Source of the DNA: Oscillospiraceae bacterium
Lineage (GTDB): Bacteria > Bacillota > Clostridia > Oscillospirales > Oscillospiraceae
Assembly: GCA_017501355.1 (NCBI GenBank)
Contig: JAFVXA010000039.1
Span: 62,001 to 126,000 of the forward strand
Reading direction: 5' to 3'
DNA: 64,000 bases
Both the position numbers and the translations under genes were made by a program. Under the pieces are notes generated by a model. That model did not search any database. It saw only the letters and a list, made by a program, of their open reading frames with translations, and was not told the origin of the DNA. Of the stretch, positions 42,215 through 64,000 are shown piece after piece (position 1 is the first letter of the stretch; each line of letters starts with the position of its first letter).

Positions 42215-42228
42215 CCCAATAACCACCG

Positions 42229-42395: not shown

Positions 42396-42462
42396 TGGAC
42401 GCAACCCCATTCTCATAACCCTCAAAATATGCTATAATTCGCATTGAGAGGGAGGGATCCAT

Positions 42463-43092: not shown

Positions 43093-43110
43093 CCACGAAG
43101 GAGGTACCAT

Positions 43111-43461: not shown

Positions 43462-43469
43462 AGAACGAA

Positions 43470-43510
43470 CCCCTCTGAGGGCCTTGTGGCTCCCAGAGGG
43501 GCGTTTTCTT
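43470..43510 (+). terminator. Terminator, inverted copy of the one at 49161
   Basis: CCCCTCTG...CAGAGGGG stem followed by CGTTTTCTT. The whole hairpin recurs in reverse orientation at 49161-49212, so the two bracket the CotH/VTC cluster. Confidence 0.85.
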
Positions 43511-45711: not shown

Positions 45712-45721
45712 TGTGGCCTCC

Positions 45722-46393: not shown

Positions 46394-46413
46394 AGTGAAA
46401 ACTCCTTTTTATT

Positions 46414-47085
46414 TCAGCCGTAGATCCGGCAAATTGCGTATTTAGAAAAAGCAGAGGTTCTGCGCCCGTTCAGTTGTACAGCGTCCCGTATCACAGAGGG
46501 AAGATACTCATCCCATTTCACCTCTAAAATGATGGGTTCATTACCCGCCGGGATCGTGACACAGTCCGGATTTAGAAAATCCGTGCAGTTCAGGCCTGTG
46601 CGAATATCGTAGTCCAGCGTGACCCGTACATTTCCAGGGCCGTATACGAAGGGCTCCCGGGTATAGTCCACAATGGTCTTGGGGCGCAATCCCTGCGTCT
46701 GCATTTTGGAATACAGCTCCTGCACCAACGGACGCCCGGAATCCAACATCCAGTCCAATTCTCCGTCCACGATGGCTTGGGCCTCCTGGGCAGTCAGCAC
46801 TGCGCTCTGCTTATTACCCAACCCATTCCATTTGCTCTTTTTCTCCAGATGGATCAAAGAGGGATCGTGATCGTAGTATCGGATCCTGAACTTTTCCCGG
46901 CAGTTAACGCCGTCTATCTTTTCCCGCAGCGCTTTGTCGGACAGATTATCAAAATAGAGGCTACGGATGAAATATGAGCCATCAACAGCATGAGGATCGG
47001 GTTTTGCCACCGCCCGAAGCCGCTGGCGTATTGCGATCATGTCGGAGAAATTGATCTCATGCTTCCATTCATGGCGAAAGTCCAA
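46414..47085 (-). CDS. VTC-domain polyphosphate polymerase-like protein
   Basis: The 223-residue protein is a VTC tunnel domain with basic and acidic strand residues (RHEWKHEI, YFIRSLYFDN, REKFRIRYY, HLEKKSKWNG, EVKWDEYLP). Yeast Vtc4 makes polyphosphate from ATP with this fold; bacterial members are assumed to make polyphosphate or a related polymer. It starts at TTG 47085 after AAAGGAG and leads the operon VTC-DUF4956-CotH. It reads divergently from a response regulator across a symmetrical control region. Confidence 0.88.
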   Translation of the reverse strand: MDFRHEWKHEINFSDMIAIRQRLRAVAKPDPHAVDGSYFIRSLYFDNLSDKALREKIDGVNCREKFRIRYYDHDPSLIHLEKKSKWNGLGNKQSAVLTAQEAQAIVDGELDWMLDSGRPLVQELYSKMQTQGLRPKTIVDYTREPFVYGPGNVRVTLDYDIRTGLNCTDFLNPDCVTIPAGNEPIILEVKWDEYLPSVIRDAVQLNGRRTSAFSKYAICRIYG

Positions 47086-47220: not shown

Positions 47221-47277
47221 ATTTGGCGTATTATAATGTTGATGAACAATATCTTCCTCACGAGCAAGGAGTGCAAT

Positions 47278-47952
47278 ATGAAGATTTTGATTATAGAGGA
47301 CGAAAAACTGCTGGCCGAATCTCTCAAAACCCTTTTGGAACTGAAAGGTTTCGAAGTAGAAGTGGTCTACGACGGCGAGGATGGCGCGGAATATGCCGAG
47401 ACCGGCATTTATGACCTGCTCATCATGGATGTGATGATGCCGAAACTCAACGGCTATCAAGTCGCCCGCCAAGTGCGTGCCCACCGGGTCACAACGCCGA
47501 TTCTGATGCTGACAGCAAAGGGTGAGGTACAAGATCGCATTGAGGGTTTGAATGCTGGAGCAGACTATTACCTGACAAAACCCTTTGACAACATGGAGCT
47601 GCTTGCCTGTATCAATGCGCTCCTGCGCCGACAAGGAGCACAAGTGGATATTCTGCAGTACGGCAACACGACCTTGGATCTGACCGGTTATGTGCTGAGC
47701 ACAGAGAAAAACAGTATTCGTCTTTCTTCGAAAGAGTTCGATGTTATGCGCCGCCTGATGCAGTTTCAGGGGCGGAGCATACGAAAGGATGTGCTGCTCA
47801 CCCAAGTCTGGGGATTCGAGTCTAACGCCACAGAGAACAATGTGGAGGCCTATGTAGGGTTTCTCCGCAAGAAGCTCAAGAGCATTGGCTCCGATCTGAA
47901 AATTGAGTCCATTCGGCTGCTTGGTTACCATCTGGAGGTGATGGAGTCGTGA
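47278..47952 (+). CDS. OmpR-family response regulator
   Basis: The 224-residue protein has a receiver domain (acidic pair at 7-8, phospho-acceptor Asp51 in IMDVMMPKLNG, Lys in LTKPFD) and an OmpR-type winged helix (about 125-222: LSSKEFDVMRRLMQ...VEAYVGFLRKKL). ATG 47278 follows AAGGAG; an in-frame ATG at 47236 has no such site. Its stop overlaps the GTG of the kinase gene. It probably binds the symmetrical operator upstream and controls both its own operon and the CotH cluster. Confidence 0.92.
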   Translation: MKILIIEDEKLLAESLKTLLELKGFEVEVVYDGEDGAEYAETGIYDLLIMDVMMPKLNGYQVARQVRAHRVTTPILMLTAKGEVQDRIEGLNAGADYYLTKPFDNMELLACINALLRRQGAQVDILQYGNTTLDLTGYVLSTEKNSIRLSSKEFDVMRRLMQFQGRSIRKDVLLTQVWGFESNATENNVEAYVGFLRKKLKSIGSDLKIESIRLLGYHLEVMES

Positions 47953-49160
47953 TTAAACGCCTGAGAATCAAATTTGTTTGCATCAACATGGTGATCGTCA
48001 CGGCCATGCTCTGTGTTATTTTCGGTTTGGTCCTGCACTTTACCAGCGCAAGCATGGAAAGAGACAGCGTTGAAATGATGCAGTCGGTGGCAATGTCTAC
48101 CCATAAGCCCGGAGTACCCGGTAAGCATGTTCCGGGATTTCCGTTGCCTCACTTCATCCTTCAACTTACTCCAGGAGGAGAATGGGCAGTCTCTAACAGC
48201 GGTAACTATGACTTAACCGATCCTGCGTTGCTAACGGAGTTGATTGAGCTTTCCTCCACACAGAAGTCCGGTGTTCTGAAAGAATATGGTCTTCGCTTCA
48301 TGCGGGTCACAACGCCTACTACACAGCGCATCGTGTTTGCTGATATGTCACAGGAAATCAGCATGATGAATAATCTTTTGCAAAACTGCCTGCTCATCGG
48401 TGCAGTTAGTTTCATCGTTTTCCTGATCATCAGCATTCTGTTGGCCCGATGGGCGGTAAAGCCGGTGGAATCGGCGTGGGAGCAGCAGAGACAGTTTGTG
48501 GCCGATGCCTCGCATGAATTGAAAACACCCCTGACGGTGATTCTCAGCAATGCCCAGATGCTCTCCGGAAACGGGGAGGATCCGGAACTCCGAGAGAAAT
48601 TGACATCAAATATTCTGACGGTATCTCAGCAGATGAAGGATCTGGTAATGAAACTCCTGAACTCTGCGCAGGTGGATCAGGGGATTGGAACAATGGAGTT
48701 CTCTATATTTAATCTCAGCGACACGGTTTCCAACGCCATGCTGCCCTTTGACTCCATTTTCTATGAGCAGGAAAAGGAACTGGACAGCGATATCCAGGAT
48801 AATATCCTGATTCGGGGCAGCCAGTCTCATCTGGTGCAGGTGATTGACATTCTGCTGGACAATGCTCAGAAATACGGAAACGAACATGGCCATACATGGG
48901 TATCACTGAAGCGACAAGGCACAAAGTATTGTCTGCTGACTGTTGCCAATGAAGGAGCTCCGCTGTCTGCCCGGGAGCGCAAAGATATTTTTAAGCGTTT
49001 CTATCGAGCCGATACTGCACGAGAGCGGACGGGCAGCTACGGATTGGGACTTTCCATAGCAGAAGGCATCGTAAAAGCACACAAGGAAAATATTTGGGTA
49101 GAGAGCAACAGTGGGATCAACACCTTCGCAATTCAACTGCCTGTTACAACTGAAGGCTAA
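47949..49160 (+). CDS. Sensor histidine kinase
   Basis: The 403-residue kinase has two membrane spans (about 8-32 and 146-166) around a 110-residue extracellular domain. Then come a short HAMP-like linker, HisKA with His189 in ADASHELKTPL, and a HATPase domain with N-box LLDNAQKYG, FKRFYRADTAR and GSYGLGLSIAEG. It starts at GTG 47949 overlapping the regulator stop. The extracellular sensor has no recognised fold. Location next to CotH/DUF4956/VTC suggests control of that cluster. Confidence 0.92.
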   Translation: MIKRLRIKFVCINMVIVTAMLCVIFGLVLHFTSASMERDSVEMMQSVAMSTHKPGVPGKHVPGFPLPHFILQLTPGGEWAVSNSGNYDLTDPALLTELIELSSTQKSGVLKEYGLRFMRVTTPTTQRIVFADMSQEISMMNNLLQNCLLIGAVSFIVFLIISILLARWAVKPVESAWEQQRQFVADASHELKTPLTVILSNAQMLSGNGEDPELREKLTSNILTVSQQMKDLVMKLLNSAQVDQGIGTMEFSIFNLSDTVSNAMLPFDSIFYEQEKELDSDIQDNILIRGSQSHLVQVIDILLDNAQKYGNEHGHTWVSLKRQGTKYCLLTVANEGAPLSARERKDIFKRFYRADTARERTGSYGLGLSIAEGIVKAHKENIWVESNSGINTFAIQLPVTTEG

Positions 49161-49212
49161 TAAAAACGCCCCTCTGGGAGCCATTTGAGGGCCCTCAGAG
49201 GGGTTGTTGTTT
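49161..49212 (+). terminator. Terminator, inverted copy of 43470-43510
   Basis: CCCCTCTGGGAGCC...CAGAGGGG stem (49169-49203) followed by TTGTTGTTT. It directly follows the kinase stop codon. Confidence 0.85.
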
Positions 49213-49229: not shown

Positions 49230-49245
49230 GGCCTCAACGAAGGAA
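49230..49245 (-). repeat. Island motif copy at the 3' end of the SLOG gene
   Basis: GGCCTCAACGAAGGAA; on the minus strand it contains the SLOG gene's stop codon. Confidence 0.65.
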
Positions 49246-49743
49246 AGTATCGCTGGCCACATTGTAAATCTCAAGATGGTTCCGTTGCGCATATCTAACA
49301 CACTGGCCGGTGCCACTGCGGCTCTGGCGCTCGTCGTAGTAACAGATTAAGGCGCTTGAACCATCAACCATTTTCTTATTCCGTTCCAAAAACGCACTAT
49401 TGCTGGCCTTGTCGGCGGGTACAGTGTAGACCAGCTTATCGAGCTGCGGGATCAGAGCTGCGTATTCTTCGCGTTGGGCGAGCGTCCACTTAGAGTCATA
49501 ACCGGGGAAGGGGAAGACACCAATGATCCGCAGGTGCGGATATTCTTCTTTTAATCTCAGCAGAAGCCGAAGCGCCATTAAATCGTAACCCAGAGCGCCG
49601 CCGACCGCCGCATAGCGATAGCCGCGAGTGAGCAGCATATGGATCATATCTTCGGTACGACGCTGGATCTTCAGAAGATCATGGTCGGGAATGTTCCTGT
49701 GACCGCTAAAACAGAAAGTTTTTTCTCGCATTATTGACATCAT
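49234..49743 (-). CDS. SLOG-family (YpsA-like) nucleotide-binding protein
   Basis: The 169-residue protein has the SLOG Rossmann pattern: CFSGHR at the N-terminus, a GGALGYDLMALRLLLRL loop-helix, then FPFPGYD and a RNKKMVDGSSALICYYDE helix-strand. YpsA-type proteins bind NAD- or ADP-ribose-like ligands and act in cell division or stress; related SLOG proteins serve as nucleotide sensors in defence systems. It reads divergently from a small XRE regulator across a palindrome-rich 100 bp, which suggests a controlled two-gene module. Confidence 0.82.
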   Translation of the reverse strand: MMSIMREKTFCFSGHRNIPDHDLLKIQRRTEDMIHMLLTRGYRYAAVGGALGYDLMALRLLLRLKEEYPHLRIIGVFPFPGYDSKWTLAQREEYAALIPQLDKLVYTVPADKASNSAFLERNKKMVDGSSALICYYDERQSRSGTGQCVRYAQRNHLEIYNVASDTFLR

Positions 49744-49844: not shown

Positions 49845-50087
49845 ATGGATGAGCAGAAAATCAGAAGAGATCTGAATATGGGCACTAACCTACGCCGGCT
49901 GCGTTTGGAGGCCAAAATCTCTCAAGAAAAGCTCTGCGCGGAGCTGCAGCGCCGCGGCGTGGACATTGGTAGAAGTACCTATGAGAAGTATGAAGCCGGT
50001 GAACTGAACATTCGGGCCAGTGTCATCGTGGAGCTGAAGAAGTTCTACAACTGTGCATACGATGAGTTCTTCGCTGGGCTGGAATAA
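49845..50087 (+). CDS. XRE-family helix-turn-helix regulator
   Basis: The 80-residue protein is a single HTH_3 domain (GTNLRRLRLEAKISQEKLCAELQ, then RSTYEKYEAGE). It is probably a dimeric repressor of itself and the divergent SLOG gene, with the palindromes between them as operators (inference). Length is that of minimal XRE regulators. A terminator follows 8 bases after the stop. Confidence 0.88.
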   Translation: MDEQKIRRDLNMGTNLRRLRLEAKISQEKLCAELQRRGVDIGRSTYEKYEAGELNIRASVIVELKKFYNCAYDEFFAGLE

Positions 50088-50094
50088 AACTATG

Positions 50095-50121
50095 GAGCAG
50101 GGGAGTACCCCTGCTCTTTTT
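50095..50121 (+). terminator. Terminator of the XRE gene
   Basis: GAGCAGGGG / CCCCTGCTC stem with TTTTT, closely related to the one at 42229. Confidence 0.9.
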
Positions 50122-50142
50122 CATGCTCTCTGTTTAGGTTAA

Positions 50143-50171
50143 TTGTGTGCTAATTGGAACTGTGATAGAAT
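50143..50171 (+). promoter_or_regulatory. Promoter of the PIN-domain gene
   Basis: TTGTGT (50143-50148), 17 bases, TAGAAT (50166-50171). Confidence 0.5.
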
Positions 50172-50206
50172 GGCATTGACCACTCTCGTTGAAGGAGATA
50201 GAGAAA

Positions 50207-51352
50207 ATGGGAAAACAGATTTCGGCTGTGCTGATTGATACTTCTGCGTATGACAATAGGCAGTGTGATTTTTCAGGGTTTACTTCGGTGATGATCCCGA
50301 CATTCCTCACCTTGTTGGAAAACAATCGTATTCCGGTTCTCGGTCATCCTATTTTGAGCAATGAGGTGCGTAAGCACATAAAAGGATCACAAATTCTGGA
50401 ACGAGTTCAGGAACTAAACAAATCCATCAAACACTGCAAAGGGGTAATGTCCTCGTTCGGTATTTCTCCAGAGGATCTCCTGGATCAGATGGATATTTGC
50501 CGGGTTGAAAAGACCCTTTTAGATGCCTATGAAGAATTTGGTCGCCGGTTTATTATGCTCCCGTATGTGGATGCGCAGGAGATTTTTGAAGATTACTTCA
50601 ACACAAATCCGCCCTTCTCTGAAAACGGAAAGAAAAAATCCGAATTTCCAGATGCTTTTGTTTTGAAGGGACTTCTTAGGTACTGCGAAGAACACACTGA
50701 TGCACAGATTCTGGTTGTGAGCAATGACTCCGACTGGAAATCAACATTGGACACAAGCCCGCAAATCAATCTGGTTGACACACTCAAAGATGCACTGGTT
50801 TTTCTGTGGCCTCAGCTTAGCGATAAGACAGAGTTTGTCGCACAACTCTGGTCTGCAATAATACCGGAAATAATGGTTGAAATCGGTTCTGCCGCCGAAC
50901 GCGAAGCGTTTAGCCTGGATGGTATTGACGAATTAGAAGATATTGAGGTTTCCAATATCCGTGCTACCAGTATGATTAGCGACATGACGCCTCTGGAGAT
51001 TACAGAGGACTCTGCGCTTATACATATAACCGCTGCTCTCTCTGTTGATGGCGTTGCAGAATACTTTGATGAAAGCCGCTCTTACTGGGATAAGGAAGAT
51101 CATATCTATTATTTCAAGGCGTATTCGCGGATGACTTTTAAGGATGCATCTGCTGAAGTTGAGTGTGAGGTACGGCTGGGTTTTCCGCCCGATGGCAGCA
51201 TGAAACCGGTTGAGATCAAGGATGTTAATATCATCAACAAATGGGACATCTGCATTGATGTGAGCGATGCAGAGACGGAGGAAGAAGATATAACCGACTA
51301 CGGTGAAGACGATTGGTACGAAGAGCAGGCCATGCACCATTCTGCTAAATGA
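50207..51352 (+). CDS. PIN-domain protein (DUF4935-like)
   Basis: The 381-residue protein has an N-terminal PIN nuclease domain: VLIDTSAYD (first Asp), later EFPDAFVLKGLLRY and VVSNDSDWKS supplying further acidic metal ligands (about residues 5-185). A C-terminal region of unknown fold ends in a very acidic tail. PIN proteins cleave RNA; this long version resembles standalone PIN_4/DUF4935 proteins found in defence islands rather than VapC toxins, and no antitoxin is adjacent. GAAGGAGA precedes ATG 50207. It lies just upstream of a type I restriction system. Confidence 0.78.
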   Translation: MGKQISAVLIDTSAYDNRQCDFSGFTSVMIPTFLTLLENNRIPVLGHPILSNEVRKHIKGSQILERVQELNKSIKHCKGVMSSFGISPEDLLDQMDICRVEKTLLDAYEEFGRRFIMLPYVDAQEIFEDYFNTNPPFSENGKKKSEFPDAFVLKGLLRYCEEHTDAQILVVSNDSDWKSTLDTSPQINLVDTLKDALVFLWPQLSDKTEFVAQLWSAIIPEIMVEIGSAAEREAFSLDGIDELEDIEVSNIRATSMISDMTPLEITEDSALIHITAALSVDGVAEYFDESRSYWDKEDHIYYFKAYSRMTFKDASAEVECEVRLGFPPDGSMKPVEIKDVNIINKWDICIDVSDAETEEEDITDYGEDDWYEEQAMHHSAK

Positions 51353-51638: not shown

Positions 51639-54600
51639 ATGGCTGTTTTTAACGAAGATACCCGGGTCAAGATTCCGGCGACAATTCAATACTTGCGGCT
51701 GGGCTATGAATACCAGTCTTTGAAGGATGCCGATATCGATCCGGATACCCGCATCTTCAGAAATAGATTTAAGCCGGCCATTGAAGCGATCAACGGCAGG
51801 TCTTTTACCGATGCTGAAGTGGATGCTTTGATTGACGAGATCCATGATCTGATCAAATATAGCGATCTGGGCAAGGCCTTTTACAACTGGCTGATCAATC
51901 CCCAGGATCGAGTCAAGCTCATCGATTTTGACCATCCGGAGAAGAACGACTTCGCAGTTGTAAACGAGCTGACTTTCGGTAAGGACGGCGCCGGCGATGA
52001 ACGCGTTGGCTCCTTCCGTCCCGATATCAATGTCCTCGTCAATGGTATTCCTCTTGCGTTCCTTGAGGTGAAGAAGCCTAACAATGAGGGTGGTATTCAG
52101 GCTGAGTTCAACCGTATGCTGAATAAGCGTCTGGACAAACCTGAGTATAAGAAATACTTCAATATGATCCAGATCGTATCCTTCTCCAACAACATGGAGT
52201 ATGAAGACGAGGATGATACGGCGCTGGCGGAAGATGTCAAGGCCGGTTCTTTCTATACTACCCCCAACGGTCAGAGAACTTCCTTCTCCTTCTTCCGCGA
52301 GGAGCAGCCCAAGACCACCGGTTTTGTCACGATCTCCATGGATCGCGTGAAGGCTGTTTTGAAGGACAATCACTATTCTCCTACTGAAGCTGATACTCCG
52401 GAATTCCAGACAAATCTGGACATGAACACTCCCTGCAACCGCTTTGTCACCTCCATGTTTGAGAAGGAGCGGTTCCTGTATTTCATCCATTACGGCCTTA
52501 CATATGTGAAGAACACGACGCCGGAGAAGCACATCATGCGCTATCCCCAGTTCTTCGCCTCCAAGGCGCTCCTGAAGCGTCTGGATAACGGCGGTAAGTC
52601 CGGCATCATCTGGCATACTCAGGGCAGTGGCAAGACTGCTCTTGCAGCCATGTCTTCTCGTATTCTGCGGGATTACTATGCAGAAAAGGGTGTCAGTGCC
52701 CGCTTCTATTATGTTGTTGACCGCTTGGATCTGCTGACCCAGGTCAGCGGCGAAATGACCAAGCGTGGTCTGAATGTCATCAATGTCAACAGTAAGAGCG
52801 AGTTCGAAAAGGAGCTGAACAAGCCCGTTTCGGATCATATTGCAATGGACACTGACGGTGAGATTACTGTGGTCAACATCCAGAAGTTTGACGATGAGAT
52901 GCCTGTGGCCAAAAACGCTTATGAAGCCAAGACCCAGCGCGTGATTTTCGTTGATGAAGCCCACCGCAGCTATAAGGCCGACGGTGAGTTCTTTAAGAAC
53001 CTAATGTTGGTGGATACTGATGCCGTCTATGTCGCCCTGACAGGTACGCCGTTGCTCTCCAAGAAAGAGCGCTCCAACCTGAAGTTCGGCGACTATATCC
53101 ATAAATATTTCTATGACAAGTCTATTGCTGACGGATACACGCTGCGCATCAAAAAGGAATCGATCGAGACGACCGCAAGAGCGGAGATCAAGAAAAACCT
53201 CGAGCTGGAGAATCCTGCCAAGAATAAGGCTGATGTGTACGAGTCCGAGGACTATATCCAGGCTCTTTGCAAGTTCATTGAGAAGGACTTTTCCTATTTC
53301 CGTCTGACCAATACCGACGATACCATCGGCGGCATGATCGTTTGCGCCTCCAATCCGCAGGCAAAGAAGATCAAGCGCTGGTTTGATGAGCAGTCCAAGC
53401 TGTCTGCTGGTCTTGTGATCAGTGATGAGGAAATCCCCTCCGCCGTCAACAAGAGCACTCAGATTGCCTTCAAGGAGACCTTGAAGCCTGATATTCTTGT
53501 TGTCCACCAGATGCTGACCACCGGCTATGATGTCAACCGTTTGAAGAAGATGTACCTGCTGCGCAATGCAAAGGAGCATACGCTGCTGCAGACCATTTCT
53601 CGCGTAAATCGCCCTTATAAGAGCCCCAATGGGAAAGTCTATCAGTACGGCTATATCGTCGATTTTGTCGATATCGCGGAAGAGTATGACCGCACCATCG
53701 AGATGTACCTGAAAGAGATCGAATCGGACTTTGGCGAGGATGGCGAGGATACGGCTCTGACCGGTCTGATCATCGGCCCGGATGACATCAACGCCAAATA
53801 TCAGAAGTATGTCTCCGAACTGGAATCCATGATCGATACGGCTAATCTGGAGCGGTTCTCCAAGCAGTTGACATTCATGAACAAGGATGCCCTGCTGACC
53901 ATTAGACGCCTACTGAACGGCATTAAAGCCTGCCACACGGAGTTCAAACTTTCCAGAGCAGACGCCTATGCAGCTCAGATTGACATCGAGCACACGAAGA
54001 AACTGCTGAAGGCCGTACAGGCCCGCATCGACTTTGTGAATCTGCGATCCACCCCTACGAACCTGCTGTCCATCATCTCCAATAAGGATGTGGTGGATAT
54101 CATCTATGAATTCCTGAAGACGAAGATTGAGATTCTTGACCTCGGTAAGTTGATTGAGGCTATGTCCAAGGTGGCGACCTCTGAGGAATACGGTACATTG
54201 ACCGATCTCGTAACCAAAGTTCAGAACGAGATTAAAAAGAACCGTAACCATAACCAGATTGAGATGATCAAGCTGGACGAGCTGCTCCAGAAGCTGTTCG
54301 ACATGATGGATATCGGCAATCTGGCCGACATCAACGAGGAGCTGCGGAAGATCCTGGAGGAAGCCCGCCGAATCAACGAGGAGAACGAGCGCCTGTCCGC
54401 CCGCTACGATGGCAACTACGCCTTCGTAAAGACCTATACAGACGCCGTGGAGATCCATTCCGAGTACGACAAGGAAGATATCGCCGCAGTTCTGGACATC
54501 GTCTACGAGGCTGTAAAGGAGATCAAGACGGCCAATATCCTGATCCTGCAGGGAAGGGATAACTTCGTCTCCAGCGTCAGTAACAAGACGATCACCAAGC

Positions 54601-54692
54601 TGATCAAGGCCAAGCTCTATGGCAAGCTGGCACTCAAGAACTGGTACAGCAGCCTGCTGACCGAAACCTATGCAAACATGAAAATGTTCTAA
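51639..54692 (+). CDS. hsdR: Type I restriction enzyme R subunit (HsdR)
   Basis: The 1,017-residue protein has an N-terminal PD-(D/E)xK nuclease (PDIN...LEVKKP, about residues 128-150), SF2 helicase motif I TQGSGKTALAA (about 327-337), DEAH box VDEAHRSYK, and later motifs TGTPLL and QTISRVNRPY. It cleaves unmodified DNA after ATP-driven translocation as part of an R2M2S complex. ATG 51639 follows AAAGGAAAAG. hsdM begins 15 bases downstream; R-M-S order on one transcript. Confidence 0.95.
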   Translation: MAVFNEDTRVKIPATIQYLRLGYEYQSLKDADIDPDTRIFRNRFKPAIEAINGRSFTDAEVDALIDEIHDLIKYSDLGKAFYNWLINPQDRVKLIDFDHPEKNDFAVVNELTFGKDGAGDERVGSFRPDINVLVNGIPLAFLEVKKPNNEGGIQAEFNRMLNKRLDKPEYKKYFNMIQIVSFSNNMEYEDEDDTALAEDVKAGSFYTTPNGQRTSFSFFREEQPKTTGFVTISMDRVKAVLKDNHYSPTEADTPEFQTNLDMNTPCNRFVTSMFEKERFLYFIHYGLTYVKNTTPEKHIMRYPQFFASKALLKRLDNGGKSGIIWHTQGSGKTALAAMSSRILRDYYAEKGVSARFYYVVDRLDLLTQVSGEMTKRGLNVINVNSKSEFEKELNKPVSDHIAMDTDGEITVVNIQKFDDEMPVAKNAYEAKTQRVIFVDEAHRSYKADGEFFKNLMLVDTDAVYVALTGTPLLSKKERSNLKFGDYIHKYFYDKSIADGYTLRIKKESIETTARAEIKKNLELENPAKNKADVYESEDYIQALCKFIEKDFSYFRLTNTDDTIGGMIVCASNPQAKKIKRWFDEQSKLSAGLVISDEEIPSAVNKSTQIAFKETLKPDILVVHQMLTTGYDVNRLKKMYLLRNAKEHTLLQTISRVNRPYKSPNGKVYQYGYIVDFVDIAEEYDRTIEMYLKEIESDFGEDGEDTALTGLIIGPDDINAKYQKYVSELESMIDTANLERFSKQLTFMNKDALLTIRRLLNGIKACHTEFKLSRADAYAAQIDIEHTKKLLKAVQARIDFVNLRSTPTNLLSIISNKDVVDIIYEFLKTKIEILDLGKLIEAMSKVATSEEYGTLTDLVTKVQNEIKKNRNHNQIEMIKLDELLQKLFDMMDIGNLADINEELRKILEEARRINEENERLSARYDGNYAFVKTYTDAVEIHSEYDKEDIAAVLDIVYEAVKEIKTANILILQGRDNFVSSVSNKTITKLIKAKLYGKLALKNWYSSLLTETYANMKMF

Positions 54693-54707
54693 AAGGAGCC
54701 TTTCGTT

Positions 54708-56366
54708 ATGGCATTTCACGATTTGGAAAAGAAGATCCATCAGATGGTCGATGACCTGCAGGGCCTTTGCTCTACCGTCGGTCTGAGCAATACGGCCAAT
54801 GAGGAAGTCGTCGTTACTTCTGTGTTCCTCTATAAGTTTCTGAATGATAAGTTCATGTACAGCCTCGGTAAATTCTCTGAGGAGATTGATGTCCCGGTGG
54901 ACAGTATCCTCAAGAACGAGGATGACATGTTGGATGCCTTCTATGATTACAACTCCAAGGATGTTGCATTCACCTACGAGGACACCATCCAGTATCTCAT
55001 CAACCACTTGGAGCAGAAGGACTTCTACCAGCAGTTTGATGACGCGCTGGTTCGTATCAGCAAGAATGCCAAGAACGACGCCTTCGCCGTGGAAACGGCC
55101 GATGGCGAGAAAACCGAGCTGTTCGAACCCCTGACGGTTATGGTGGAAGGCGCACAGCGCAACAACTTTGCTAAGGCTATCTTTGGTATCATTGCGCAGG
55201 AGAAGTTCGATTTCTCCGAGGCTTTCGAGGGTGGGTTCGACTTCTATTCCGCTATCTTCGAGTACCTCATCAAGAACTACAATGTGGCCAGCGGTACTTA
55301 CGCTGAGTATTTCACGCCTCAGACTGTTTCTTCCATCATTGCCAAGATCCTGGTTGGTATGAGCAACAAGATTGAAGCGGCGGAGATCTATGACCCCGCC
55401 GCCGGTTCCGGCTCCCTGATCCTGCATCTGGCGCATGAGCTGGGACAGGAGTCCGGCATGAACCGTGCCATCGTTTACACCCAGGACATTTCCAAGAAGT
55501 CCACCCGTTTTCTGCGCCTGAATATGATGCTGAATGGAAAGTCTGAGTCTCTGGGCAACATCATTCGTGGCGATACTCTGGAAAGCCCTGCTCACTACAA
55601 TGTAGAGCATGAGCCCGATTCCGGCCTGAAGAAGTTCTCCTATATTACCACCAATCCGCCCTTCAAGACTGACTTCTCTGCAACCCGTGATCGGATTGAG
55701 CAAAAGTGGCAGGACACCCGCCGTTTCTTCGCCGGTGTGCCCAAGATTCCCAATGCGAAGAAGGAGTCCATGGCCATCTATCTGATGTTCATTCAGCATG
55801 TCCTGTATTCCATGAAGGAGGATGGCAAGGCTGCCATCGTTGTCCCCACAGGCTTCCTGACCGCCAAGAGCGGCATCGAATTCGCGATCCGCAGCAAGAT
55901 GGTAGAGGAAGGTATGCTCAAGGGCGTCATCTCCATGCCCTCCAACATCTTCGCCAACACCGGCACCAATGTCTCTGTGCTTTTCCTGGACAAGGCTGGA
56001 GACTTTGGAGATGCGATTCTGATCGACGCCTCCAAGCTGGGCTCTAAGGTCAAGGAAGGGAAGAACCAGAAGACCGTTTTGAGCGACAATGAGGTTAAGC
56101 GCATCATCGACACCTTCCTCGCCCATGAGAATGTGGACGATTTTGCTGTAGTGGTCTCTCATGAGGACATCGCTGCAAAGAACTGTAGCTTCTCCGCCGG
56201 ACAGTATTTCGAGGTGAAGATCGAGTACATCGATATCACTGCAGAGGAATTCCAGGCGAAGATGGAGGGCTATAAGGCCAGTCTGCGCGGACGGTTTGCT
56301 AAGGGACATGAGTTGGAAAAGCAGATCATGAACCAGCTTTGTGGAGTGTATTTCAATGAAAATTAA
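54708..56366 (+). CDS. hsdM: Type I DNA methyltransferase subunit (HsdM)
   Basis: The 552-residue protein has the N-terminal HsdM helical domain and an N6-adenine methyltransferase core with SAM motif DPAAGSGSL (about 226-234) and catalytic NPPF (about 312). Modification of the host sequence protects it from HsdR. AAAGGAG precedes the ATG. Its 3' end overlaps the hsdS start by 11 nt. Confidence 0.95.
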   Translation: MAFHDLEKKIHQMVDDLQGLCSTVGLSNTANEEVVVTSVFLYKFLNDKFMYSLGKFSEEIDVPVDSILKNEDDMLDAFYDYNSKDVAFTYEDTIQYLINHLEQKDFYQQFDDALVRISKNAKNDAFAVETADGEKTELFEPLTVMVEGAQRNNFAKAIFGIIAQEKFDFSEAFEGGFDFYSAIFEYLIKNYNVASGTYAEYFTPQTVSSIIAKILVGMSNKIEAAEIYDPAAGSGSLILHLAHELGQESGMNRAIVYTQDISKKSTRFLRLNMMLNGKSESLGNIIRGDTLESPAHYNVEHEPDSGLKKFSYITTNPPFKTDFSATRDRIEQKWQDTRRFFAGVPKIPNAKKESMAIYLMFIQHVLYSMKEDGKAAIVVPTGFLTAKSGIEFAIRSKMVEEGMLKGVISMPSNIFANTGTNVSVLFLDKAGDFGDAILIDASKLGSKVKEGKNQKTVLSDNEVKRIIDTFLAHENVDDFAVVVSHEDIAAKNCSFSAGQYFEVKIEYIDITAEEFQAKMEGYKASLRGRFAKGHELEKQIMNQLCGVYFNEN

Positions 56367-57591
56367 AGATATTACTACAAAAATTGGTAGTGGTGCAACT
56401 CCCACTGGAGGCGAAAATGCCTATAAAGAATCTGGCATAGCACTTATTCGAAGTCAAAATGTTCTTGATTTCAGTTTTTCAAACCATGGGTTGGCTTATA
56501 TTGATGAAGTACAAGCGCAGAAGCTTGACGGTGTTACTGTAAAAAAGGGTGATGTTCTTCTGAATATTACCGGAGACTCAATTGCGAGATGTTGCATGGC
56601 TCCTGAAGAGTTTTTACCTGCAAGAGTGAATCAGCATGTTGCCATTATTCGCTCCAAAGATGTCTCTTCCGAGTATCTCATGTACTATTTGCAATACATG
56701 AAACCTTATTTACTGCAAATTTGTGGTGTCGGCGGAACGCGCAATGCACTCACTAAGGAAAGTATTGAAAACATTCCTTTTTTTAAACAAGAAAACGAAG
56801 AAAAAATTGCTGCGGTACTATCTGATATCGATGCTAAAATCGCCAACAACGCCATCTGCGCTGATCTCGAAGGTATGGCGAAGTTGCTCTATGACTACTG
56901 GTTTGTCCAGTTTGATTTCCCTGATGAGAACGGAAAGCCTTACAAGAGTAGCGGCGGCAAGATGGTTTGGAATGAGGAATTGAAGCGGGAGATTCCGGAG
57001 GAGTGGGAAGCTAAGTCACTCAAAAGCTTAGCTACAATACAAACTGAAAGTATTTCACCGTTTGAAAAGAAAGATTCCATTTTCGAACACTACAGTATTC
57101 CAGCATTCGATGATGGGCGTTACCCTGTATTTGAAACGGGTAGCGAAATTGACAGCAATAAGTACCGTGTTCCTCACGCAGCAATACTTGTTTCAAAACT
57201 CAATCCTCAGTTTAAGCGCATTTGGGATCCTTTGAATACGGACGAAACATGTATTTGTTCCACGGAATTTATGCCTTTCGTATGCCGGAACAACTTGTTG
57301 CGCGGATATGTGTATTTTCTTTTGAATTCTGATGCATTCCAAAAATACCTTGTTCAATGCTCTTCAAGTTCTACAGGAAGCAGAAAAAGAATGCAACCTG
57401 AACTGTGTGGAGACTTCTTGCTGGCTATTCCTGAAAGCTCTTGTTTGATGGAACAGTTCAGTAAGATTGTTATTCCTATGTTAGAGGATTCGAAAAACCG
57501 AATTACTGAAAATGCAGAATTAACATCCCTGCGTGATTTCCTCCTACCCATGCTGATGAATGGACAGGTGAAGGTAAAGGAGGGCGCGTGA
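56356..57591 (+). CDS. hsdS: Type I specificity subunit (HsdS)
   Basis: The 411-residue protein contains two target-recognition domains (about 1-150 and 215-380) separated and followed by conserved helices (AAVLSDIDAKIANNA; a C-terminal LTSLRDFLLPMLMNGQV). This is the full two-TRD layout that sets a bipartite recognition site. The first TRD is AT-richer than hsdM/hsdR, consistent with TRD exchange between strains. ATG 56356 lies inside the end of hsdM. No second hsdS fragment or invertase is adjacent. Confidence 0.93.
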   Translation: MKIKDITTKIGSGATPTGGENAYKESGIALIRSQNVLDFSFSNHGLAYIDEVQAQKLDGVTVKKGDVLLNITGDSIARCCMAPEEFLPARVNQHVAIIRSKDVSSEYLMYYLQYMKPYLLQICGVGGTRNALTKESIENIPFFKQENEEKIAAVLSDIDAKIANNAICADLEGMAKLLYDYWFVQFDFPDENGKPYKSSGGKMVWNEELKREIPEEWEAKSLKSLATIQTESISPFEKKDSIFEHYSIPAFDDGRYPVFETGSEIDSNKYRVPHAAILVSKLNPQFKRIWDPLNTDETCICSTEFMPFVCRNNLLRGYVYFLLNSDAFQKYLVQCSSSSTGSRKRMQPELCGDFLLAIPESSCLMEQFSKIVIPMLEDSKNRITENAELTSLRDFLLPMLMNGQVKVKEGA

Positions 57592-58299: not shown

Positions 58300-59514
58300 A
58301 TGGCCATCCAAAAGTATTCTTATGTTCCCAAAGAACCGGATAAGGACGGACTCCGGAGATATGTGCTGGAAACTCACCCTGCGTCCCCGATCTGCGAGGC
58401 GTGTGGTGCAAAAATGCGGTCCAAAGGCACCAGCAGAACAAAGGACAAACCTCGCGTCCTTTATGACATTGATTCTGCAGACGGAGAAGTGATCAGAATT
58501 GACTACTGGCCCAAGAAGTACCGCTGCACGAACCCGGACTGCAACAAGGTGATCCCGGATCCCAACGCTCCGCCGCTCACCAAGGAGAAGGGCACCGAGG
58601 AGTTTCGCGCATACCTCGCCGAAGAGACCCTGTCCAACTCCAAGCTGAGCGTGAAAGAAGCAGGAGCCAAATACGGCGTTTCTGGCGCGTATGTGTCGGA
58701 GAGCATTCAGGCGCTTCTGAAAAAGCACAGCGCAACTGTAGTAAGCTTCTTGCCATGCAGCAAGATCCATATTGAGGCTGCGGACTGCTATCAGACCCCA
58801 TGCTATGTGGTCTTTGGATACGCAGATTCGCTTAGAATGTGGGTTCTTTTGGACATTATCGAAGCAGGGAAGTACAACCTGATCGTGGATCTCTGCGAAA
58901 AGGTAAGCACCCCCGCCGAAATCTGCTGCCCATTGGATCAGCAGCTCGTTAGTATTCTGAAGGACAAATTCCCCAAGGTTCTTTTGAAGATCCCGACCGA
59001 TAGCTTCTTCTCGTATCTGAACGATTATGCGGATATGGTAATTTCGCAGAGATCGGATGATATAACAAAGCTCGTGCGCGATACGGTTGATGCTATAAGG
59101 ATGCGCATAAGGATGGGCTTTACCAGCTACAAGAGCATGGAGCAATGGTGGATGTCCCTTGCCGATAATCCTCCAGATGATCTCTATGCGAGCAAGTTTG
59201 GAGAACCATCGTTCCCAGACATATATGGAGATCTAAATGGTCATTGTCTGGAGGGACTATACCAGTTCCAGACAGCAAAATACCAGGTGCCGGACTGCGT
59301 AGAAAGGATTCTGAATCTCTTAGCTCGATTACACAAGGCGCATACACCTGTAGAAATCGTACGGTTTAGACTGCTCTATCAGGCAGAGTTCTTCCGCCGA
59401 ACCCTTAAGCAAAACAAGCAAATGATCTATCGCGGCGGATACAGCTATTTTGGCGCTCAGATGCCTCAGATTGAAGAGTGGATCAATTGTTACACACTCA
59501 TCCCAACCGACTAA
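58300..59514 (+). CDS. ISL3-like transposase-related protein
   Basis: The 404-residue protein has an N-terminal zinc-binding part (CEACGAKMRSKGT..., RIDYWPKKYRCTNPDC) like the ISL3-transposase zinc finger. A helix-turn-helix region (LSVKEAGAKYGVSGAYVSE) follows, then an RNase-H-like segment starting near IEAADCYQTPCYVVFGYADS. I cannot assign a full DDE triad, so it may be catalytically altered or domesticated. No terminal inverted repeats flank it. GGGAGGGG precedes the ATG. It stands alone between the restriction operon and the Tn7-like end. Confidence 0.6.
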   Translation: MAIQKYSYVPKEPDKDGLRRYVLETHPASPICEACGAKMRSKGTSRTKDKPRVLYDIDSADGEVIRIDYWPKKYRCTNPDCNKVIPDPNAPPLTKEKGTEEFRAYLAEETLSNSKLSVKEAGAKYGVSGAYVSESIQALLKKHSATVVSFLPCSKIHIEAADCYQTPCYVVFGYADSLRMWVLLDIIEAGKYNLIVDLCEKVSTPAEICCPLDQQLVSILKDKFPKVLLKIPTDSFFSYLNDYADMVISQRSDDITKLVRDTVDAIRMRIRMGFTSYKSMEQWWMSLADNPPDDLYASKFGEPSFPDIYGDLNGHCLEGLYQFQTAKYQVPDCVERILNLLARLHKAHTPVEIVRFRLLYQAEFFRRTLKQNKQMIYRGGYSYFGAQMPQIEEWINCYTLIPTD

Positions 59515-59651: not shown

Positions 59652-59748
59652 GTCCCCTCATTTATGAACGATAAAACCATTGAAATTACTGGGGTTACAG
59701 GGTTTTCAAGTTGGCATAAAAGCATAGTGTCCCCTCATTCATAAACGA
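59652..59748. repeat. Tn7-like transposon end with repeated TnsB-type sites
   Basis: GTCCCCTCATTTATGAACGA (59652-59671) and GTCCCCTCATTCATAAACGA (59729-59748) match at 18 of 20 bases, lie in the same orientation and are 77 bp apart. They lie just outside an operon ending in tnsA-tnsB that reads inward, the arrangement expected of a Tn7-family end. A weaker GAACGATA match at 59577 may be a third site. The exact terminal bases and target duplication cannot be fixed without the other end. Confidence 0.7.
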
Positions 59749-59862
59749 CCACGCTTGGACTTTCTGACCTTGTCTTATTTTTGTCTCGAAAAAATGTATA
59801 GTACGGGTGAAAAGTTTAATCGAGACATGACTTTTCACATCAAAAACAAGGAGGAAAATAAC

Positions 59863-60372
59863 ATGATTATTGACCCGAAGAAAGGATCATCGATCAGCCT
59901 GGATCCCGATGAACTCGTAGAGTTCAGTGAGGTAGGTAACGCTATCCCTTTTCTTTATCCAACCCTGAAAAGGTATACTGTTGAGCCCCGCGTCCATTTC
60001 CAGCTCGTATTGACCGAGAGGAGTGAAAGCATCTCTGTAGACCTGCCCCCGGACATTACGCATGAGCTCGCCAACAAGATGTCTGGTGAATGTTATGCAT
60101 GGAAAGCCAAGGCGCTGGATCAGCACGGTGAAGACTTCAATTTTTTGGTGATGTATCGCTATGTGGGCACTGTTCGGCTGGTTGGAAAAGGTGTAGTGCA
60201 GCAGATGTTGGAGTTTGGCGTAGAGAAGGGTGGTAACTTCGCCATGAGGATGGCAAGATCGGAACCCAGCGAGCTCGACTACACAAACTTTATGCACATT
60301 ACGATCCCGGACTACGAGTTGGGTAACCTGGCTCGTCAGCTCGAGTTTGTAGCTCAGATTACGGAGGTTTAA
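59863..60372 (+). CDS. Unknown Tn7-like element protein 1
   Basis: The 169-residue protein is soluble and acidic, with alternating beta strands and a closing helix. It contains RVHFQLVLTER, ISVDLPPDITHELANKM, a central VMYRYVGTVRLVGKG and a final YELGNLARQLEFVAQI helix. No known motif. ATG 59863 follows AAGGAGG. It opens the operon that runs without gaps into tnsA and tnsB. Its layout (strands, VDLP followed by an amphipathic helix, strands, final helix) is shared with the next gene, suggesting a distant duplicated family. Confidence 0.8.
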   Translation: MIIDPKKGSSISLDPDELVEFSEVGNAIPFLYPTLKRYTVEPRVHFQLVLTERSESISVDLPPDITHELANKMSGECYAWKAKALDQHGEDFNFLVMYRYVGTVRLVGKGVVQQMLEFGVEKGGNFAMRMARSEPSELDYTNFMHITIPDYELGNLARQLEFVAQITEV

Positions 60373-60375
60373 GCT

Positions 60376-60888
60376 ATGTTCTTCAATACTGGTTTTCTGT
60401 ATGCAGAGATCATGAACGATGCCGCTCCTGATCCGCATCCCTGTGTACCGATCGTTTACCCGAATGCTTCCTGTCCTAACTGCGAAACCGCATCGATCCA
60501 TCTGGAGTTTAAGCTGCCTACCATTGATGATTCCGAAAGCGTAAAGATGGATCTGCCCCTGGCAATGGTGGCAGAGCTCACCGAGCAGTGTGCCGCCGTT
60601 GAATACGGAGTCACCCGGCCGGGAGATGAAGTTATATTTAGTTTCCGCACCCGCGTCTCCATGGGTAAGGCATCTCTGAGACAGCGGATGGATGTAGTCG
60701 TTAACGAGAATGGACAGGTTTATTTCAAGCTTTCCAACACCTTCCGGAAAGGAGTCCCGTTCCTGAAGCACACCAGTCAGCAGATTCGGGTTCATCTTTC
60801 CGAAAAACAGTTGGAGGCGTTCTGTGACCACCTGGATTTCCTGGTAGAGATGTACGACGAAGAGGTGGAATGCGATGAAGGAAATTAA
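60376..60888 (+). CDS. Unknown Tn7-like element protein 2
   Basis: The 170-residue protein begins 3 bases after protein 1. It has a CPNC pair near residue 33, then SIHLEFKLP, VKMDLPLAMVAELTEQC, strands around FSFRTRVSMG and YFKLSNTF, and a closing helix SEKQLEAFCDHLDFLVEM. The order of elements mirrors protein 1, especially the MDLP/VDLP-helix and the final helix. Function unknown; not similar to TnsC, TniQ, TnsE or Cas proteins. It overlaps protein 3 by 14 nt. Confidence 0.8.
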   Translation: MFFNTGFLYAEIMNDAAPDPHPCVPIVYPNASCPNCETASIHLEFKLPTIDDSESVKMDLPLAMVAELTEQCAAVEYGVTRPGDEVIFSFRTRVSMGKASLRQRMDVVVNENGQVYFKLSNTFRKGVPFLKHTSQQIRVHLSEKQLEAFCDHLDFLVEMYDEEVECDEGN

Positions 60889-61393
60889 CTTGACTGGTCT
60901 GTATTTTAAAGGACTTGAGGGCGATAAGGAAGAGCATCCCTGCAATCTTCTGGTGCTCCCGACGCCGAAATCAGTATCCTATGACCTCGGCATTCGTCTG
61001 AGTATGTTCTGCGAAGAAACCGGCAACATGGTGCCGGTGGACATGCCTATTCTCTACGCGCAGCGGTTCTGCAGCATGGCAGAAACGCAGGAGTATCTCA
61101 GTAGGGACTTTTGGGAGTTCAACGAGTGTAATTCTGTGAATTACTGGATGATGGTTTCATGGCTGGTTCTGGCCGCCGGTCAGGATCCGTGCTATCAGAG
61201 TTTTGGATTTGGCCAGTCTGTAGATGGCCGTTTTGTACTTATGGTTTACCGGGACCTGGGGCGTTACAGCCCCGGCCTCGGCCATCCGCCGGTGCGGTAT
61301 TTAGCCTATTTAGATGAGGGTACGCTTGCAACAATCGTCAGCGAAATCGCAGCGCTGACTCTGGAAGGGGAGGGAGAGCACCATGATTCGTAA
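60875..61393 (+). CDS. Unknown Tn7-like element protein 3
   Basis: The 172-residue protein starts inside the end of gene 2 (AAGAGGTG upstream). It has SYDLGIRLSMF, VPVDMPILYAQRFCSM (again a V-D-hydrophobic-P strand leading to a helix), a tryptophan-rich middle, GRFVLMVYRDLGRY and a closing TLATIVSEIAALTLE helix. No enzymatic motif is visible. Similar length and element order to its neighbours suggest a divergent paralogue. Overlaps gene 4 by 11 nt. Confidence 0.78.
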   Translation: MKEINLTGLYFKGLEGDKEEHPCNLLVLPTPKSVSYDLGIRLSMFCEETGNMVPVDMPILYAQRFCSMAETQEYLSRDFWEFNECNSVNYWMMVSWLVLAAGQDPCYQSFGFGQSVDGRFVLMVYRDLGRYSPGLGHPPVRYLAYLDEGTLATIVSEIAALTLEGEGEHHDS

Positions 61394-61901
61394 CGATGCA
61401 TTCATGACCGCAAGGGTCAATAGTTTTATCAGTCCCAGCTATGAGGAGTTCCAGTGTTTTCCGCTGATCAACGCTGATGGGGAAGAGGTGCAACTCGGAT
61501 TCTTTCGTTGCGGCGTAGAGGATCCATTCATTGCTATTAAGCTCAACCCCGATATCGCTGCCCATCTGGGCAGTGGTATCCTCAGCGAAAATGTAGATTT
61601 GATTGACCAGTGGTATGAAGACCTTGGAAGCAAGATGACCGCCGATGACGCTTGTGCTTACTATTGCGCATGGAGCACGGGAGATAGGTTCCAGGCCGTC
61701 GCATACGGCATTTCAGAAGACAGACGCATTGTTTTGATGATTTCGGATATTGACACTACTCAGAAGCTTACATTTAGCCCTAAGTCAAACCATTTCGCCA
61801 TTTATTGTCCGAAATCATACTTCTACAATCTGGGCCGCAACCTTTTACTGGCGGCGGACGGTATCGAAATGGAAAAAGAAAGGAGATTCTTGAATCTATG
61901 A
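61383..61901 (+). CDS. Unknown Tn7-like element protein 4
   Basis: The 172-residue protein has VQLGFFRCG, FIAIKLNPDIAAHLGSG (strand-Pro-helix as in proteins 1-3), AVAYGISEDRRIVLMISDID (close in pattern to GRFVLMVYRDL of protein 3) and a closing YFYNLGRNLLLAADGIEM helix. Its stop overlaps the tnsA start by 4 nt, so translation is coupled to the transposase genes. Unknown function; a transposition regulator, target-selection factor or structural partner of TnsA/TnsB are all possible. Confidence 0.78.
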   Translation: MIRNDAFMTARVNSFISPSYEEFQCFPLINADGEEVQLGFFRCGVEDPFIAIKLNPDIAAHLGSGILSENVDLIDQWYEDLGSKMTADDACAYYCAWSTGDRFQAVAYGISEDRRIVLMISDIDTTQKLTFSPKSNHFAIYCPKSYFYNLGRNLLLAADGIEMEKERRFLNL

Positions 61902-62581
61902 ATTTTGACAAGCCTATCGAAATGCCACGCGGCAGCCACTATGGCAGCGATTATTACATCCTTTTTAGTGCCAAAATTGGGCGTGTGGTGCGCTTCTTCT
62001 CAAAGCTGGAGTACATGAATTTTCTCAGTCTCGAGCTTGATCCTACTGTAGAAAAATTTTGTGAGCAACCTCTAAAAATCCAAATTACGGAAGATAACAA
62101 GATCAAAGAGGCTGTCTTTGATATGTGGGTCAAGTATAAGGATGGTAGGGAAGAGCTGCAGGAGGTCAAATATTCCAAGGAACTCACTGATGACTCAAAA
62201 TCTGCGATTCGTTCTCAGGAACAAATCCGTCGTCAGAAACACTGGTGCGAAGACAACAATGTTCCCTTCGTTGTACGCACGGAGAATGATCTGCTCAAGG
62301 GAGAATATCTGATTCAGAATCAGAGTGTACTTGCGGCTCTGGTCCGGCGATATACACCCAATAGTGCTCACTACTATGATAAGCTGATTGTTCGCTACCT
62401 TGAGGACGCTGCTCATGATGGGCGGAAAAAGGTTCTTGTAGGAGAACTCATAAGCAAAGAACTGCTGCCTATTGGTTGCGAATGGGCTCATCTCGCCTAC
62501 ATGTATGCGAACGGGATGATTGGTTTGAACATCGCAACAAAACCCTTGGATCATAAAACGGAGGTACGACTGTATGCCTAA
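61898..62581 (+). CDS. tnsA: TnsA-like transposon endonuclease
   Basis: The 227-residue protein matches TnsA. It has an N-terminal nuclease domain with Glu38 (SKLEYMNFLSLELD), Asp75 (EAVFDMWVKY) and Glu89-x-Lys91 (LQEVKYSKE), the E-D-ExK set that cuts the 5' strands at Tn7 ends. A C-terminal winged-helix domain for TnsB/TnsC contact follows. The in-frame upstream start at 61805 is rejected: ATG 61898 follows AAAGGAGA and overlaps the previous stop. It gives a cut-and-paste rather than copy-in mechanism. Confidence 0.9.
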   Translation: MNFDKPIEMPRGSHYGSDYYILFSAKIGRVVRFFSKLEYMNFLSLELDPTVEKFCEQPLKIQITEDNKIKEAVFDMWVKYKDGREELQEVKYSKELTDDSKSAIRSQEQIRRQKHWCEDNNVPFVVRTENDLLKGEYLIQNQSVLAALVRRYTPNSAHYYDKLIVRYLEDAAHDGRKKVLVGELISKELLPIGCEWAHLAYMYANGMIGLNIATKPLDHKTEVRLYA

Positions 62582-64000
62582 ATTGGTAGACAAGCTGTTT
62601 TTGCGTACTCTGCGCGAAACTTGGACAGAAGTGAATACAACAGGGATGTCGGAAGCCGATGCTGCTAAGTTCAAGAAGCAAAAGCTGGCTGTGGATCTCT
62701 ATATCGATGATACTCCTAACGATATCATCGTTTCACGCACAGGTCTTACAAAGGCCAGAATTTGTCAACTGGCCAAAAAGTGCGCAACTCCTGTATCCAC
62801 AACCGGAGAGATCCCCGGCTACAATGCTCTGATTCCTGGCAAGATTTTGTCTCCTGCACAGACAAAGCTTGAATTGTTCTTTGATGAATATCCAGAGATC
62901 AAGAACAAAATTAAAGGCACTTATTTCGGTGACAAGGCCTACACGAGCGAGCGCCGTACCAATATTCGCAGCCTGCACAGCATTTTCATTGAAGAATGCA
63001 GAATTGCCGGTGTCCAAGATTACGAATTTCCTTTCACCCTCAAGGATTATGGGTACAGCCGTTTTTGTGAATACATTGCAAAGATGCGCGATGAAGAAAT
63101 GATGCTGGCCATTAAACGAGAAGGAAAGGATCAGCGTCAGCAGTTTCTTTCTACCGGCTACGGAAAATCTCTTGCAATCAATCCTAAGGCTCCTTACGAT
63201 ATGGTCCAAATTGATGGTCACATCATTGATGTACTGACCGTCGTTACCACCGAGGGGATCGATGGAGTCGAAATCACCGATATCGCAACCCGAATGTGGT
63301 TGATTGCTGTAATTGATGTAGCTACCCGCTGCATCATCGGTTATTCTGTATCGCCGCAGATGAATTACAACCAGTACGATGTGCTGAAAGCCATCCAAAG
63401 TTCTATCGTTCCTCATGACCACAAGCCGTTTAAATTAAAAAGCCTTTCTTACCCAGAGGGCGGCGGTTTTCCGTCAGAAGCAATTCCGGAAACCAAGTGG
63501 GCTGCGTTCAATACAATTATGCTGGATAACGCAAAATCTCACGCTGCATTCAATGTGGTTAACAAGCTGACAAACACTCTTGGCTGTGTAATGAACTTTG
63601 GCTCTGTGGCCACGCCCGAATCTCGTGGTATCGTAGAACGCTTTTTCGGCACTCTGGAGCGCTCTGGCTTCCATCGGCTGCCCAACACCACCGGCAGCAA
63701 TCCACGGGATCTAAAGCGTCAAGACGCAGAGAAGTACGCCAAGGAAATCAAGCTTACCTATGAGGATGTTTGCGAGATCTTGGAGTCTCTCATTGCTGAG
63801 TACAATAACAGTGCTCATAGCGCCCTGCATGGTTATACCCCGCTTGAGATGATGGCTACCAAAATCCACGATGCTCGTATGCCGATTTATACTGTGCCTC
63901 AGGATCAACGGGAAAATGTCATGAACTTGACTCATTTCACCATTGAACGCAACCTGCGTGGTTGTTACGCCAAGGGTAAACAGCTTCGGATCAACTTCAA
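62574..64000 (+). CDS. tnsB: TnsB-like DDE transposase (partial, runs off window)
   Basis: The first 475 residues are present. An N-terminal DNA-binding part leads into an rve/RNase-H catalytic core with Asp214 (VQIDGHIID), Asp318 (IMLDNAKSH) and Glu355 (RGIVERFFG), the D-D-36-E spacing of TnsB. A beta-barrel begins near residue 440. TnsB binds the repeated end sites and joins the 3' ends to target DNA. ATG 62574 follows GGAGGT and overlaps tnsA by 8 nt. tnsC and a target selector such as tniQ/tnsD should follow beyond the window. Confidence 0.93.
   Translation, partial: MPKLVDKLFLRTLRETWTEVNTTGMSEADAAKFKKQKLAVDLYIDDTPNDIIVSRTGLTKARICQLAKKCATPVSTTGEIPGYNALIPGKILSPAQTKLELFFDEYPEIKNKIKGTYFGDKAYTSERRTNIRSLHSIFIEECRIAGVQDYEFPFTLKDYGYSRFCEYIAKMRDEEMMLAIKREGKDQRQQFLSTGYGKSLAINPKAPYDMVQIDGHIIDVLTVVTTEGIDGVEITDIATRMWLIAVIDVATRCIIGYSVSPQMNYNQYDVLKAIQSSIVPHDHKPFKLKSLSYPEGGGFPSEAIPETKWAAFNTIMLDNAKSHAAFNVVNKLTNTLGCVMNFGSVATPESRGIVERFFGTLERSGFHRLPNTTGSNPRDLKRQDAEKYAKEIKLTYEDVCEILESLIAEYNNSAHSALHGYTPLEMMATKIHDARMPIYTVPQDQRENVMNLTHFTIERNLRGCYAKGKQLRINF

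Follow-up and report, generated by a model that had tools for sequence, protein, structure and literature searches.

The closest described systems are the Tn7-like transposons, of which 6,549 have been delimited by way of inverted arrays of candidate TnsB sites (PMC8649781). That survey gives restriction-modification as the commonest defence cargo, names adjacent insertions as one source of multiple ends, and reports group median sizes of 14-29 kb. A second paper describes the architecture of TniQ/TnsD proteins and seeks extra target selectors among genes operonic with TniQ (PMC10293859). Here, a stretch of 64,000 nucleotides from an Oscillospiraceae bacterium (the window; positions 62,001-126,000 of contig JAFVXA010000039.1, or G000:C37) was analysed together with the 3,358 bp that lead from its edge to the contig end at 129,358; positions past 64,000 are extended coordinates. 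The stretch probably carries a Tn7-like, TniQ-directed transposon of about 29 kb, running from ~38,490 to ~67,356, with defence genes inside it. A defence island that looked chromosomal would then be the mobile cargo of a Tn7-like element.

Two arrays of short repeats carry this reading. To the right of tniQ, direct repeats of about 30 bp (CCCACTTTAATTTCATTCGA) run on the + strand from 67,084 to the end of the contig at 67,358. On the - strand at 38493-38607 stand four repeats of about 29 bp, candidate TnsB sites that are inverted with respect to the right array and that set the start of the element at about 38490-38499. A strict pattern, CCCANNTTANTTTCNNT, matches only six times in the 2,153,045-bp genome, three times on the + strand in the right array and three times on the - strand in the left array (38505-38606); the reversed pattern, used as a control, matches nowhere. 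Because sites of the strict pattern occur solely in these two mutually inverted arrays, the element is taken to span, in all probability, from ~38.49 kb to at least 67.36 kb, its left end lying about 21 kb to the left of where a first-pass annotation of the window had put it.

A matrix built from six right-array sites, scanned over the 67-kb sequence and compared with 100 shuffles, picks out the same place. Outside the right array only four positions score 14 or more: 25.8, 23.4 and 19.5 on the - strand (38,496, 38,554 and 38,581) and 18.5 on the + strand (38,461). In the shuffles the top score averages 13.9 and reaches 20.5 at the highest, and scores of at least 14 average 0.59 per shuffle, with a maximum of 4. 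G+C content drops from 52.4% on the outer side of the left array to 46-50% in the stretches within the element. Reading inward from the right end gives CTTGTAGATTCCGGCTTCGCGTGAAATACC, with ...TCTACA at 67,356, and the Tn7-like right terminus TGTAGATT... probably lies 2 bp from the contig end. Such an assembly break would fit an element that occupies more than one place, or exists in more than one state, within the population. A search with the final 479 bp of the contig found no continuation in the bacterium's own assembled genome.

Just inside the right array lies an operon of eight mostly overlapping genes, in the order s1-s2-s3-s4-tnsA-tnsB-tnsC-tniQ, with successive gaps from s1 to tniQ of +3, -14, -11, -4, -8, +5 and +17 bases; all eight open reading frames (ORFs) are intact. 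The complete tnsA (61898-62581, + strand) encodes a TnsA-type endonuclease (PF08722, E=4.8e-15, score 56.3 against a cut-off of 26.5). On the same strand tnsB (62574-64553, 659 amino acids) has reached codon 475 at the window edge, its part within the window being 62574-64000, and continues on the contig. Its product matches solved TnsB structures at 5e-9 (phmmer) and holds the DDE residues D214, D318 and E355, invariant in a three-sequence alignment (A1). TnsC, of 316 amino acids, is an AAA+ ATPase (AAA_22, PF13401, 1.1e-12; TniB, 1.4e-5) whose profile reaches the solved ShTnsC at 8.8e-4. The last gene encodes a TniQ/TnsD-like protein of 452 amino acids. This protein is very divergent, with 18-22% identity to its relatives, with which it shares invariant C62, C65, C83 and H86; a four-sequence profile reaches solved TnsD at 4e-5 and TniQ at 0.012, across the zinc-finger region.

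The first-pass annotation had called a Tn7-family element with intact catalytic residues, and had proposed to extend the contig rightward in search of tnsC and tniQ, where a target selector would decide the type. The family call is supported, and the extension supplies both genes, which follow tnsB; the selector proves to be one TniQ/TnsD-like protein and not Cas. The same annotation described an operon ending in complete tnsA and tnsB, which is right for tnsA, whereas tnsB is completed only past the window and is itself followed by tnsC and the TniQ-like gene. It also saw no Cas genes in the visible part, and this extends to the whole element as scanned: Pfam finds no Cas family in 24 of the 25 main ORFs (a 116-amino-acid ORF at 43111 being the unscanned one), and a search for a CRISPR (clustered regularly interspaced short palindromic repeats) array finds no exact 16-bp repeat in 38,300-67,358. 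The element is therefore read as TniQ-directed, and a CRISPR-associated transposon (CAST) was rejected on the same two results.

On this machinery, the ~30-bp sites of the two inverted end arrays would serve for TnsB binding, TnsA would cut and join together with TnsB, and TnsC would relay the signal of the single TniQ/TnsD-like protein. The latter would give the right end one fixed target in the chromosome, a behaviour known as homing.

Relatives of the element bear on both the ends and the homing. A scan of genome contigs with TnsB alone gave no relatives, and a search with a TnsB alignment gave 124 stretches, from which 26 relatives were taken, in Bacillales, Burkholderiales and a few metagenome-assembled genomes. 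A tblastn search of plasmids with TnsB matched 523 records, 38 of them covering at least 80% of the protein. Three plasmid loci were added to make 29, and 26 of these have matches to all of TnsA, TnsB, TnsC and TniQ (L085, L096 and L100 are without one or more). TnsB identity to the Bacillales and Burkholderiales relatives is 26-35%. The clade is very rare in the host's own order, where a TnsB match at 1e-10 occurs in just one of 394 genomes examined, that of the host itself; among 200 genomes searched in the host's family, two have a match, one being the host and the other weak (5.9e-4).

In the relatives, end arrays of the CCCACTTTNNTTTC / TATGTTCNTGTCGC kind stand, where seen, just past tniQ. 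Cohnella cholangitidis has its right-end motif pattern at three places, plus one inverted copy 16.6 kb away, and both of its termini are near-identical (TGTGTAGCGACA). In four Paenibacillaceae elements (L075, L078, L080 and L088) the sequence ACATATGTRYAAAATACGGGTTTTGTG starts 43, 45, 34 and 37 bp past the right terminus, which in L075 and L078 was placed by eye; the remaining loci of the same scan do not have it. Because these four sit 34-45 bp from one conserved sequence, the comparison indicates that these Paenibacillaceae elements home to a conserved attachment (att) sequence. The analysis offers candidate end sequences for a family that occurs in both Bacillales and Burkholderiales and, for Paenibacillaceae, a candidate att sequence.

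One relative, on the plasmid pNY3A (L018, CP079755.1, 250472-270223, recorded as Klebsiella grimontii), carries cargo like that of a cyclic-oligonucleotide-based antiphage signalling system: a nucleotidyltransferase, ThiF, Mov34 and SAVED. The nearest kin of this element are Bacillales, and the species record may be misassigned.

Several observations tell against a complete, TniQ-directed transposon with these ends. The left site at 38,525 scores just 11.5, though it is in register at the 29-bp spacing, and no TGT terminus is found at the expected spot, 38,490-38,499. The assembly lacks the right flank of this copy, in which any att site and target duplication would have to be sought; in Cohnella and pNY3A, with the termini as assigned, no 5-bp target duplication is found. 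The TniQ-like protein alone matches no Pfam family, and its relatives match below the cut-off.

The missing TGT, together with a first spacing in the left array that differs from that of the right end, is what an immobile remnant would show, its genes intact and its left end damaged by deletion. This is compatible with the origin proposed above; it is, however, unlikely, as neither the eight ORFs of the operon nor the catalytic residues show damage and four left sites remain.

Another alternative is that the left array comes from a different or earlier member of the same family, and that the resident element is composite or partly decayed and has lost its own left end. Immediately outside the left-end sites stands a single + site of right-end type (38461-38486, score 18.5), and similar + sites stand outside the left ends of Cohnella (two, of a different motif) and pNY3A (one), as tandem insertions at one site would leave; the lack of a clear TGT terminus would fit here too. 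Yet all six strict-pattern matches fall within the two mutually inverted arrays, and the assembled genome holds no other candidate left end, which makes this alternative distinctly unlikely. The + site itself possibly survives from an earlier element's right end. On one reading, each newcomer inserts between an att sequence to its right and the right end of its predecessor, a remnant of which then stays on the left.

The first-pass annotation had the transposon start at 59.65 kb, with GTCCCCTCAT... as its end motif and an unrelated defence island beside it. The two 20-bp sites on which it drew do exist, GTCCCCTCATTTATGAACGA at 59652-59671 and GTCCCCTCATTCATAAACGA at 59729-59748, both on the + strand and alike at 18 of 20 bases, where shuffles of the 11,358-bp locus reaching the contig end (L002) give a mean of 0.02 such matches. 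Even when up to three mismatches are allowed, neither strand of the 64-kb window or of that locus has another copy, so that, as far as the contig reaches and by the annotation's own rule, which asked for inverted copies downstream, the sites are not ends. Within 59652-59748 the best end-motif score ranks only ~700th to 740th of 134,666 positions, which is background, and because of this low rank with the right-array matrix the 20-bp sites are taken as a different kind of site from the end arrays. With direct repeats that lack inverted partners, a background score, and relatives whose arrays of another motif follow tniQ, a start at 59.65 kb is hardly credible.

The two repeats lie directly upstream of the eight-gene operon and in its orientation. 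Most likely they are regulatory sites of the s1-s4-tnsABC-tniQ operon rather than transposon ends, and would act on its expression. A pattern search found no sigma-70-like promoter near the operon, and scans for Rfam families and tRNA genes gave no matches.

The genes s1-s4 (59863-61901, + strand; 169, 170, 172 and 172 amino acids) are orphan ORFs, translationally coupled to one another and to tnsA. The first two are paralogues (BLASTP 3e-5; z 7.2, 0 of 500 shuffles as good), and s2 and s3 are likely so (z 4.3, 1/500). The pairs s1/s3 and s3/s4 are borderline (7/500 and 10/500), while s1/s4 and s2/s4 are not significant (51/500 and 149/500). By this comparison the four appear at least partly paralogous, at least s1-s3. 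None matches Pfam, NCBIfam or PHROGs (E up to 0.1) or PADLOC (E up to 0.01), and none has a match in the 29 relative loci, where, in the 23 checked, no + ORF of at least 80 amino acids overlaps tnsA or stops within the 30 bp before it; the closest leaves a gap of 34 bp (L090, L091). No relatives were found for s2 in plasmids or viral contigs, or for s1 in phages. The A5 profile, run over the 394 genomes, matched the bacterium's own genome only, its four matches there being present by construction. The structure model of s1, with a predicted local distance difference test (pLDDT) of 40.5, is unusable.

Because s1-s4 are coupled to tnsA, they may have a role in transposition. The idea that they form a transposition complex with the divergent TniQ, as an extra target selector or a regulator, is tentative and has a low probability. 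Should s1-s4 take part in transposition, they would represent a new type of accessory component, one of interest for targeted DNA insertion.

All that lies from the left array up to the tns operon is likely to be cargo. From the left, it begins with a BspA-type leucine-rich-repeat protein (38955-41174, - strand, PF13306), followed by a lipoprotein-like ORF and two small ORFs (41483, 42463 and 43111; 41483-43461, +), the first two of these three without a Pfam family. Next come Pfam-assigned CotH kinase, DUF4956 and VTC-domain genes (43594-47085, -), a response regulator with a histidine kinase (47236-49160, +, Pfam), a YpsA (SLOG) family gene (49234-49743, -, PF06908), and a helix-turn-helix protein with a PIN_12-domain protein (49845-51352, +, Pfam). 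A type I restriction-modification system, hsdR, hsdM and hsdS (51642-57591, +; Pfam, PADLOC), a 127-amino-acid ORF and p404 complete the series. With the end arrays at 38461-38610 and 67084-67358, the island at 38.6-59.5 kb lies inside the transposon, and not beside it as first proposed. The label "defence-rich" was fair to the type I restriction system but generous otherwise, as nothing else inside the element is clearly a defence gene.

The protein p404 (404 amino acids, 58300-59514, +) has CxxC pairs that suggest a zinc ribbon. By eye alone it recalls an ISL3-type transposase, with zinc ribbon and helix-turn-helix, its catalytic residues not being clear. No family in Pfam, NCBIfam, PHROGs or PADLOC lies above the cut-off, no relatives appear in plasmids or viral contigs, and the structure model (pLDDT 37.3) is unusable.

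An 11-bp motif, GCCTCAACGAA, has six copies in the 2.15-Mb genome, five of them at boundaries of cargo modules inside the element: 38963(+), 41373(-), 42384(-), 49231(+) and 59601(+), with a one-mismatch copy at 38625(+). Of these five, two overlap the final codons of a gene, and the other three lie between genes. When the cargo was shuffled 60 times, no 11-mer had more than three copies. Possibly this is the site where cargo modules were joined. Another reading, of about the same low probability as a transposition complex of s1-s4, is that of a site-specific collection of cargo, with modules joined at the shared motif. Two inverted repeats are also seen in the cargo, one of ~150 bp (75% identical, E=5.8e-21) around the leucine-rich-repeat gene (38770-38921 / 41195-41343), and one of ~50 bp (86%) around the CotH/VTC/two-component block (43460-43507 / 49163-49212).

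Directly left of the element, and outside it, lies a xerC-like tyrosine recombinase gene (37323-38366, +, PF00589), with radA upstream. It is a core gene, with a homologue in 39 of 40 relatives of the bacterium. Its downstream neighbour varies in these relatives, an AlgI-like acyltransferase recurring in several of 20 loci; the AlgI copies in the bacterium's own genome (C61, C16) show no link to the element. The relatives G200 (L069, on G200:C3), G204 and G023:C9 carry additional copies of the xerC 3' end (49-70% identical) at other places, which point to other elements that integrate at the xerC 3' end. The xerC 3' end was considered as the target of this transposon and is not shown to be so, as the neighbour varies and the 3'-end fragments fit other integrating elements. 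The + site left of the left array suggests instead that the att side is on the right.

How, then, does the element compare with known systems? A search of the open-access literature, by title and the opening of the abstract, found nothing on the ends of this clade or on genes like s1-s4. With CAST it shares the TnsB/TnsC/TniQ machinery; it differs in having no Cas proteins in the scanned cargo and no exact 16-bp repeat. The pNY3A element has 32% TnsB identity, CCCACTTTCTTGTC end sites and defence cargo in common with it, but is small (~11 kb) and without s1-s4. Cohnella cholangitidis, Paenibacillus profundus, P. baekrokdamisoli and P. algorifonticola share the tnsA-B-C-tniQ order, arrays after tniQ where seen, and right termini in ...ACA (by eye in the last two); they differ in their site sequences, in having tnsA first in the operon, and in a common att sequence in the right flank, which in this copy is unassembled. 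The homing transposons with a single TniQ/TnsD, as the two papers cited at the outset present them, share with it tnsA-B-C-tniQ, inverted arrays of candidate TnsB sites, a size of ~29 kb, restriction-modification cargo and the lack of Cas genes. Peculiar to the element here are a tns operon that points outward at the right end, s1-s4 within that operon, and the divergent 452-amino-acid TniQ. Its kind is already known, that of an ordinary TniQ-directed Tn7-like transposon, and its unusual parts are s1-s4 and the motif at the module boundaries.

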